From positions 1 through 35,681 of the forward strand of contig JASHRQ010000115.1 of assembly GCA_030037265.1 (NCBI GenBank): a DNA stretch of 35,681 nt. Reading direction: 5' to 3'. This document shows, piece by piece, positions 31,495 through 35,681 of the stretch (the first letter of the stretch is position 1; the number at the start of each line of letters is the position of its first letter). This DNA is from Thermoplasmata archaeon (GTDB lineage Archaea > Thermoplasmatota > Thermoplasmata > Lutacidiplasmatales > UBA184). Below the pieces are notes generated by a model that worked only from the letters and a program-made list of their open reading frames with translations, was not told the DNA's origin and made no database searches. The position numbers and the translations under genes were made by a program.

Positions 31495-31899
31495 TTAAGG
31501 CAAAACCACGAATCCCGCCTGGGCAAAGTCGGCATCGAACGCGAAGGCCGTATCCGCCCCGAGCGCGCGCATCACCACGAAGCTTGTGCAATCGGTGACG
31601 CTCCAGTCCTTGTCGTCGTGCTGCGCCATCAACGCGATGGCTCCGTCGTGATGAACTCGCTCGATCCAGAAAGTGATTAGTTGACGACTCTGGGTCATCG
31701 AGGTGGCCAGAGTTGCCGCTCGGCTCGGACCGAGGCGGCGTGCGACTAGGGTGAGTGTCTCTTGGATCACGTAGTTCGTGGTGATGGGCTGCCCGAACTC
31801 GCCCCGACTGACTCGCCCGTAGAAGTCCGCCGCCGCCGCGTGGTGCCGATCGTGGCGATCGGCCAACGCGACCCAGGCGCTGCTGTCGACGAAGATCAT
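31495..31899 (-). CDS. vapC: PIN-domain toxin (VapC), module 1
   Basis: MIFVDSSAWVALADRHDRHH, VIQETLTLVARRLG, DWSVTDCTSFVVMRALGADTAFAFDADFAQAGF (PIN acidic residues). Confidence 0.93.
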   Translation of the reverse strand: MIFVDSSAWVALADRHDRHHAAAADFYGRVSRGEFGQPITTNYVIQETLTLVARRLGPSRAATLATSMTQSRQLITFWIERVHHDGAIALMAQHDDKDWSVTDCTSFVVMRALGADTAFAFDADFAQAGFVVLP

Positions 31900-32141
31900 C
31901 GGCGCCGGGCGGGGCCGTAGAGCAGGTCGTCGTGCTTCCGGGCCGTGTCGTGGCCCTTGGGGCCACTCGCCCCCAGCGGGAAGGCATGGAAAATCGGATC
32001 GGCGGCGTCCACCGGCTCCTCCGCTAGGTAAGCGTGGATGGCCTGGCGGATAATCTCCTTCATCGGCTCTCCTCGGGCCGACGCCCGTTGGCGGAGGAGT
32101 CGATACTCGGCCTCGGGAAGCTGCGCCTGGACCAGAGTCAT
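31896..32141 (-). CDS. vapB: VapB-like antitoxin (RHH-like), module 1
   Basis: MTLVQAQLPEAEYRLLRQRASARGEPMKEIIRQAIHAYL; ATGA overlap with vapC; TATA-like aaaatac upstream. Confidence 0.85.
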   Translation of the reverse strand: MTLVQAQLPEAEYRLLRQRASARGEPMKEIIRQAIHAYLAEEPVDAADPIFHAFPLGASGPKGHDTARKHDDLLYGPARRR

Positions 32142-33110: not shown

Positions 33111-33270
33111 GAAACACAGCTAGAAAGTACGCTCAAACAGATAGCCCCGAGCGGATTCGAAACGCTCCCCGACGCGGGCGGGACTTCTTCAGACCCGGTA
33201 CCGACAGGTACGCCGTAGAGGTCACCGCCGTCCGACCCGCGAGCGAAGCTCGGGGGCGGCCGGCGGCTGA

Positions 33271-33657
33271 CTAGTACGTCTCGAGGTGGAGTCCCGGGAT
33301 CCGTTGGAAGTCCTGGTCTCGTGTCACCAGCGTGGCCCGGTGCCTGTGGACGATCGCGGCGATCAACAGGTCGAGAGTGCCCACCGAACGCCCTTGCCGG
33401 TCGAGTTCGCCCCCGAGCCGAGCTGCGTCGTCGGCGGTCTCGGCCTCCAGTGGCAACACCTGCAGCCGTCGGGTCAGCGTGAGGCTTCGGTCCAGCAGCC
33501 GGCCCCCACGGCGGTAGCCGGATCGAAGAAACTCGGTGAGGGCCGGCGCGGGAATCGTAAGGGTCTCCGGAACTCCCTCCCACTCGACGGCGCGACGCCG
33601 AGCCCCCTCGTCACCACGCAGCAGATCGAAGCAATACGTCGCGTCAAGTGCCTTCAC
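33271..33657 (-). CDS. vapC: PIN-domain toxin (VapC), module 2, GTG start
   Basis: VKALDATYCFDLLRGDEGARRR ... LTIPAPALTEFLRSGY ... GTLDLLIAAIVHRHRATLVTRDQDFQRIPGLHLETY. Confidence 0.93.
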   Translation of the reverse strand: MKALDATYCFDLLRGDEGARRRAVEWEGVPETLTIPAPALTEFLRSGYRRGGRLLDRSLTLTRRLQVLPLEAETADDAARLGGELDRQGRSVGTLDLLIAAIVHRHRATLVTRDQDFQRIPGLHLETY

Positions 33658-33905
33658 GGGCCACCTTGGGTCCGGTGAAGGCGGGACTGCCGTCGCGCGT
33701 CGCCCCGGCGGGCCGAGTCGCGCTCTCGCTCGATCTCCCTCCACACCCGAGGGGGAAGGTTGCCCAGGGAGCCAGCGAGGTCCGAGATTCGCGCGGGAGG
33801 GCGGAGAGTCCTTCGGACAACGGCGCTGAACGTCTCTCCGGACCGCTTCGACTTCGACAGAAGTTCGTACGCCTCCGCGTCCAGGGCAACGGTCTTGGAC
33901 GCCAT
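33654..33905 (-). CDS. vapB: VapB antitoxin, DUF217-like, module 2
   Basis: MASKTVALDAEAYELLSKSKRSGETFSAVVRR; GTGA overlap with vapC; TATA-like aatatatc at 33929-33936, ~28 nt upstream. Confidence 0.88.
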   Translation of the reverse strand: MASKTVALDAEAYELLSKSKRSGETFSAVVRRTLRPPARISDLAGSLGNLPPRVWREIERERDSARRGDARRQSRLHRTQGGP

Positions 33906-33977
33906 CAACGCAACGAACGTGTGCCGCCAATATATCGGTTGTGTCTTGTCAACACAGGCGGTGCAGTCCTGGACTGT

Positions 33978-35152: not shown

Positions 35153-35249
35153 GGAGCGCCGGTAGACCGACCCGTGAGGTGGACCGGCGGCTAAGCCCTG
35201 CCCCGAGTCCTCCATCGACCACCGACTAGTCAGCCAGAAAGAGGGCCTG

Positions 35250-35403
35250 CCCTTCACGAGGGATGAAGGGTGGAGCGCGTGGGTGGCGGGCGTCGACACT
35301 ATGGGGCCTGGACCCCGTCGCTAGTCTGCCCGCCGTCGACCCGCTGTCTTGGGGTTCGCCCCCGAAGAGGAGTTTGTCGGGTTCTGCCCGCACGCTCCAC
35401 CCT
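35250..35403 (+). ncRNA. Candidate IS110 bridge RNA / structured left-end RNA
   Basis: 5' hairpin CCCTTCA-cgaggga-TGAAGGG (35250-35270); stem-loop GGCGGGC/GCCCGCC (35285-35291/35328-35334) with 9+9-nt internal loop and apical ATGGGG-CCTGGA-CCCCGT; second internal-loop stem-loop 35338-35383; outer AGGGTGGAGCG/CGCTCCACCCT (35267-35277/35393-35403). Confidence 0.5.
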
Positions 35404-35430
35404 GACCACCACCGTGGAGGAGGTGATCGG

Positions 35431-35681
35431 GTGTACGTAGGTATCGATGCCCATAAACGCGAGTGTCACGCCACTGTGCTGAATGAACGAGGAGAGAAGC
35501 TCTCCACCGCCAAGTTCCCGACGAACCTGGGGGCCCTGACCGCCTGGGCGCGGACCCTGCCCGAGGGCAGTGTGCTCGCCCTCGAGGCGAGCACCGTCGC
35601 CAAGCGGCTCTACTGGCACCTCAAGGGGTTGGGTCTCGACGTGCGGATGGCCCATCCCCTGGAGGTCCGACGGATGGCCGG
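35431..35681 (+). mobile_element. IS110-family transposase (DEDD N-terminal domain), GTG start, truncated by window end
   Basis: VYVGIDAHKRECHATVLNERGEKLSTAKFPTNLGALTAWARTLPEGSVLALEASTVAKRLYWHLKGLGLDVRMAHPLEVRRMA; preceded by SD GGAGGAGGTGATC. Confidence 0.9.

Follow-up and report, generated by a model that had tools for sequence, protein, structure and literature searches.

The closest described counterparts of the locus analysed here are the guide RNAs of IS110-family elements, called bridge RNAs in IS621 and the IS110 group (Durrant et al. 2024, PMC11208160; Hiraizumi et al. 2024, PMC11208158) and seekRNAs in the IS1111 group, for which Siddiquee et al. 2024 (PMC11187229) treat ISEc11, ISKpn4, ISPa11 and IS4321. 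Two published studies link the location of the RNA to the subfamily, i.e. upstream of the transposase in IS110 and downstream in IS1111 (PMC11187229, PMC11208160), and one of the two also reports that the order of the guides differs between these subfamilies. IS110-group bridge RNAs lie between the left end and the recombinase gene, with the target loop on the 5′ side, the donor loop on the 3′ side and the CT core at the 3′ ends of the guides; in IS621-like elements, subterminal repeats are absent or 2–3 bp long. In the IS1111 elements of PMC11187229, subterminal inverted repeats carry 7-nt and 3-nt extensions, and the RNA presents the complement of the top strand before the match to the bottom strand. 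ISMtsp17, whose non-coding region is upstream, and ISHvo10 and ISAcp5, which have one upstream and one downstream, are named there as exceptions among IS1111 relatives because of non-coding length, and the sections that name them give no guide order, structure or covariation. A literature search covering few subscription journals and no bioRxiv preprints returned no paper on the guide order of these exceptions or on the archaeal group described below.

The window (the whole 35,681-nucleotide stretch of DNA that was analysed) ends in an archaeal element that combines traits of both subfamilies. Positions 35247–35408 of its plus strand are very probably the gene of a bridge RNA (seekRNA), with guides in IS1111 order, belonging to an intact-looking IS110-family element. 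The comparisons below support a variant that would uncouple the polarity of the RNA from its position, the position being that of IS110 and the ends and polarity those of IS1111. Similar to IS621 and its group, the RNA lies between the left end and the recombinase gene, the target loop precedes the donor loop, the guides run to the core at their 3′ ends and the catalytic residues are shared, but the guide order and the orientation of the element are opposite, the subterminal repeats are long, and both loops are held within one outer helix. With IS1111 elements it shares the 7-nt and 3-nt extensions, the order of complement and match in the RNA and, in a related copy from genome G058, an insertion site within a terminal repeat of a different element. 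Unlike IS1111 elements, it carries the RNA upstream, its right end spans only tens of nucleotides, and in a tree with weak deep forks its transposase falls in a separate archaeal clade. ISMtsp17, ISHvo10 and ISAcp5 resemble it in having subterminal repeats and an upstream non-coding region, a likeness drawn from their published description. An element on a Halobellus sp. DFY28 plasmid (NZ_CP134948.1) has a 16-bp subterminal repeat, the core AG, the same extensions and, in a single-sequence reading, its right end ATAGGAG (7/7) within the upstream region; it differs in carrying ~210 nt downstream as well and in its transposase (~34% identical). A second group in the same archaeal order has the ordinary IS1111 layout, with ~94 nt before the transposase, ~155–177 nt after it and 11–12-bp subterminal repeats.

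Ends of the element and its transposase

The Thermoplasmata genome concerned comprises 154 contigs, and the window, which corresponds to contig C104, stops within the transposase gene. The end of contig C153 of the same genome overlaps the window end exactly over 116 bp and holds the remainder of the gene, and the element was assembled across these two contigs. It measures 1,372 bp from core to core, RNA region included, and a search of the genome's contigs returned no second copy of the joined sequence. The 5′ part of the transposase gene (377 amino acids in all) occupies plus-strand positions 35431–35681. It starts with GTG at 35431, downstream of and co-oriented with the RNA, and is preceded by a ribosome-binding-like GGAGGAGGTGATC (35416–35428, plus strand). 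PF01548 and PF02371 score above cut-off, NF033542 scores 229.5 bits, and alignment to IS621, whose catalytic residues are published (PMC11208158), shows that D6, E52, D90, D93 and the SG motif are retained. The predicted protein thus has the DEDD RuvC N-terminal domain and the Transposase_20 C-terminal domain with an SG motif by which the IS110 family is defined. In a tree with weak deep forks and a midpoint root used for drawing only, the transposases of elements with an upstream RNA form one Thermoplasmata clade (98/96), apart from those of IS4321 and IS5708 (IS1111) and of IS621 (IS110).

The left end lies at 35228. Homology among related copies starts at 35226 in three of them, with different flanks outside; copies in the same archaeal order have common DNA from 35226 to CTCTTTCAGAGGAGTG at the right, and their flanks are unrelated. 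The left junction (35226–35229, plus strand), placed by this loss of homology, consists of the flank CT, which is half of the target, and the core AG (35228–35229) with which the element starts. The boundaries read CT-AG on the left and AG-TG on the right, and the same AG precedes the right flank, so that the CT core proposed in the earlier note corresponds to AG on the top strand. The core is followed by TCAGC (35230–35234, plus strand), the donor half whose complement in loop 2 forms the left donor guide; AG and these five nucleotides make up the 7-nt extension. Next comes the left subterminal inverted repeat CAGAAAGAGGGCCTGCCC (35235–35252, plus strand), complementary at 16 of 18 positions to its right-end partner GGGCAGGACCTCTTTCAG on the minus strand of contig C153 (L004 17186–17210). 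Counting the core, 7 nt separate the repeat from the left end of the element, and 3 nt lie between its partner and the right core. This rule (AG plus five, repeat, three plus AG) holds for the window element and its relatives, among them 18 elements scoring at least 21 and further relatives, despite their other sequences, as in AG-TGGAC-GTGAAAACGC..GCGTTTTCAC-GGG-AG and AG-ATGTC-ATGAAAAAAGTT..AACTTTTTTCAT-AGA-AG. In relatives with defined ends, 10–12 of 12 repeat positions pair. The right end of the window element lies ~28 nt past the transposase stop, leaving no long right end.

On contig C153, a tRNA-Gln gene (L004 17098–17170) borders the right end. A 27-nt stretch of this gene recurs (96%) at window positions 33140–33166, ~2 kb upstream of the element, and may be left over from an unrelated integration event at this tRNA gene. 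Sister genomes yielded no empty site for the copy in the window; they match the tRNA-Gln gene and scattered stretches beyond it but not the 20 nt adjacent to the element.

Structure and conservation of the RNA

The 35247–35408 span is that of two covariance models, R1 and R2, and all features that follow are on the plus strand. The stems, loops, caps and outer inverted repeat listed in the earlier note are all present in the sequence. Sequence and folding place a 5′ hairpin at CCCTTCA/TGAAGGG (35250–35256/35264–35270). The outer inverted repeat (35267–35277/35393–35403) extends into an outer helix of 16 pairs (35267–35284/35386–35403), which encloses both guide loops (both partners changed in 15 of 16 pairs, pairing in 89% of cells). 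The outer helix and the 5′ hairpin both use TGAAGGG and therefore compete. Within the helix, the stem GGCGGGC/GCCCGCC (35285–35291/35328–35334; 95.6% of cells paired, six of eight pairs changed on both sides) leads to the target internal loop GTCGACACT/CGCTAGTCT (35292–35300/35319–35327), which is closed by the cap ATGGGG/CCCCGT (35301–35306/35313–35318). The donor-binding stem-loop (35338–35383) follows, with the stem GACCCG (35338–35343)/CGGGTT (35378–35383); helices 4 and 6 covary.

Segment 35240–35425 folds with a z-score of −3.85 (0 of 200 shuffles equally good) and segment 35264–35408 with −3.6 (1 of 200), and an Rfam search of the RNA region gave no match. Conservation is the stronger evidence for the structure. 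Among nine close copies, mostly 81–92% identical with one at 71%, six pairs show compensatory changes and the covariation score is 0.136 against 0.107 ± 0.009. A covariance model built from these copies and run on 400 genomes of the class retrieved low-G+C members in another family, and in the resulting 18-row alignment 28 of 43 pairs are changed on both sides. With the second covariance model, the RNA was recovered from 21 genomes in a set of 395 from the phylum; within the family to which the window belongs, matches also lie upstream of more distantly related transposases. Among the loci checked, each that reaches a transposase lies directly upstream of an IS110-type one. Altogether, 48 covariance-model matches span Thermoplasmatota at ~40% to more than 70% G+C. 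In their final 48-row alignment 87.3% of cells are paired, 34 of 43 pairs carry compensatory changes, and the covariation score reaches 0.474, compared with 0.178 ± 0.008 after shuffling (46 distinct rows) and 0.06–0.10 with partners slid. As the larger alignments (A3, A4) are fits to the covariance model, the unfitted nine-copy set is the cleaner, albeit weaker, test. Covariation among homologues, which the earlier note had put forward as a check, is present in both sets, and by this comparative evidence the predicted RNA is a real conserved structure.

Guide order and alternative readings

Twenty-five elements with both ends defined were used for the target test, in which each RNA was compared with its own flanks and with those of other elements. 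The left strand of loop 1 carries the complement of the flank at the right end, and its right strand carries the flank at the left end; the left strand of loop 2 carries the complement of the left end, and its right strand the right end. The first target strand matches the right flank at 167 of 225 positions (125.3 ± 4.4 for permuted flanks) and the second matches the left flank at 152 of 225 (128.7 ± 3.7). In IS1111 order, the elements' own target flanks match at 319 of 450 positions, compared with 254.0 ± 6.2, and in each case none of 20,000 permutations, from which relatedness among elements is not wholly removed, did as well. In the window element the first target guide GTCGACACT (35292–35300, plus strand) is complementary at 6/9 to the top strand of the flank on the right (core AG plus TG and onwards), and the second, CGCTAG (35319–35324, plus strand), has the same sense as the left flank and core but matches them in CTAG only. 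This own match is modest; strong target matches are found in relatives, e.g. G089 (GCATGCTCT, 9/9), G022 (TCAACCCCT vs GCAACCCCT, with GAGAGGAAG vs GGGAGGAAG) and G021 (TATCGTTCA vs CATCGTTCT, with GAGAGGCAG vs GCGAGGCAG).

The donor matches follow the same order. The left donor guide GCTGTCT (35343–35349, plus strand) is a near-complement of the left end AGTCAGC (6/7, the perfect complement being GCTGACT); in general, this guide matches the 5-nt extension and not the core. Across 15 donor-end types, the first strand of loop 2 matches the complement of the left extension at 69 of 75 positions (55.7 ± 2.6) and the second strand matches the right end at 103 of 105 (83.7 ± 2.8), each with 0/20000 permutations. 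The right donor guide AGAGGAG (35366–35372, plus strand) equals the right end plus core in the window element (7/7), and right end plus core recurs exactly in 23 of the 25 element RNAs. In the G035 copy, co-changes are visible by eye: a left end CTGG accompanies CTGG in loop 1, and a right end AGCG accompanies CGC in loop 1. The search windows for guides were defined once 14 elements had been inspected, and with the 11 elements added later the guide signal was kept and grew (z 10.4). The assignment of loop 1 to the target and loop 2 to the donor, made in the earlier note from the sequence alone, is borne out, as are the matches it called for between the loops and the insertion flanks and element ends. 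IS621, read in the same way as a single-sequence control, shows the reverse guide order, as published (PMC11208160).

That reverse order is what the earlier note had expected here as well. A canonical IS110/IS621-type bridge RNA, in which the left strands of the loops would be same-sense copies of the left target and of the right end, is in keeping with an RNA that precedes the transposase, the arrangement of most IS110-group elements (PMC11187229, PMC11208160), and ISCro4 and IS621 are the nearest solved structures. However, target matches in IS110 order are at chance among the 25 elements (250 of 450 vs 248.7 ± 5.5), the donor left end is near chance (59 of 75 vs 56.1 ± 1.8), and the right-end score, although raised (80 of 105 vs 70.9 ± 2.4), is probably so because the two donor search windows overlap. 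Long subterminal repeats, moreover, belong with IS1111, as does the 7/3 rule, and we regard the canonical order as very unlikely. A guide RNA made antisense to the transposase gene is more doubtful still: the inverted loop palindromes do fold on the minus strand too (R1 gives a weak minus match, E 0.028), but the core would then fall at the 5′ end of the guides and not at the 3′ end, unlike in the published handshake, the covariance model scores 193.8 bits in sense and 18.5 bits on the minus strand, and it is on the sense strand that the ribosome-binding-like site and the transposase come next. Guide order and core position led us to reject both of these readings.

The proximity of the hairpins to the ribosome-binding-like site, and the occurrence of the left 60 bp alone as short copies in several genomes, would also suit a mere translation-control leader or a REP-like repeat devoid of guide function. 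Yet the letters of the loops track the differing ends and flanks of each copy, which is not expected of a leader, and the solo pieces resemble element remnants, making such an explanation scarcely credible. The bridge RNA with guides in IS1111 order is thus the preferred reading. An IS1111-type organisation with a downstream RNA had been named in the earlier note as an outcome that would speak against its proposal; the IS1111-type organisation is found here, and the RNA is upstream.

In such a system, the transcribed RNA would be bound by the recombinase, and the left strand of loop 2 would pair with the left end, and its right strand with the right end, of the joined ends in an excised circle. 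Both guides of each loop would extend to the core dinucleotide (AG on the top strand of the element, CT on the other), where the recombinase would catalyse strand exchange, so that the circle would be integrated with CT-AG on one side and AG-TG on the other. With respect to the guide RNA, the element would be inserted the opposite way to IS621, as in IS1111.

The archaeal clade appears to separate RNA location from guide order. Whether the whole clade constitutes a third layout of RNA-guided recombination, with the left target of the bridge RNA at the far end of the element from the RNA itself, is to our mind evenly balanced; if it does, where the RNA lies and which way the element points evolve independently of each other, and the clade may represent an intermediate step linking the IS110 and IS1111 layouts. 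Its natural insertions are numerous enough for testing guide rules without experiment, and it is a source of compact recombinase–RNA pairs from acidophilic archaea, including the three-copy element of G280, whose copies are well suited to bench work.

Insertion sites, remnants and neighbouring genes

The G058 copy sits at the tip of a terminal repeat of a ~110-bp repeat that has CTAG on both sides (CTAGTGTAGTGTCCTC .. GAGGACGCCACACTAG); taking the element out restores CTAG-TG, a putative empty site. Full-length relatives of the ~110-bp repeat encode a DDE_3 transposase, which, from its motifs, we take to be of the IS630 type. Insertion into terminal repeats is known for IS4321 and IS5075 (Partridge and Hall 2003, as cited in PMC11208160). 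In G045 (contig C14, L050 360–1505), a 1,146-bp DDE_3-type element is inserted at CTAG within loop 1 of a copy of the RNA gene; recombination inside the RNA gene was considered for this copy and rejected in favour of this insertion. The G045 and G058 insertions are a case of reciprocal targeting between the IS110-family element and related DDE_3 elements. A mixed-frame ORF in a related copy gave no Pfam match.

Solo left-end pieces without a transposase occur in several genomes of the order (L083, L094, L096, L087, L090, L003), among them a degenerate one in the window's own genome (contig C103). L100 (G033, contig C55, ~54948–55032) is an 85-bp palindrome-like mini-element with CTAG on both sides, in which the left-end 66 bp of the element precede 22 bp of that end in inverted orientation; such a structure suggests mobile non-autonomous copies that have a left end on either side. 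The single-contig genome G280 holds three copies (L198, L199, L200) at different sites; they share their ends, have identical RNA scores and are flanked by TCAAAATA, ATCTAAAT and TCAAAACA. Their identical scores suggest recent movement, and the element was probably active recently. L168 and L169 (G339 and G244) contain, in head-to-head arrangement with the first, another IS110-type transposase gene that differs from it and has its own weak match to the RNA model.

Elsewhere in the window, two minus-strand gene pairs (33271–33930 and 31495–32141), each a PIN-like ORF with a small upstream ORF, look like putative VapBC toxin–antitoxin modules. IS110-family transposases were also seen at one record end of Thermus phages with short genomes (LC210520.1, PQ109074.1, PP554188.1).
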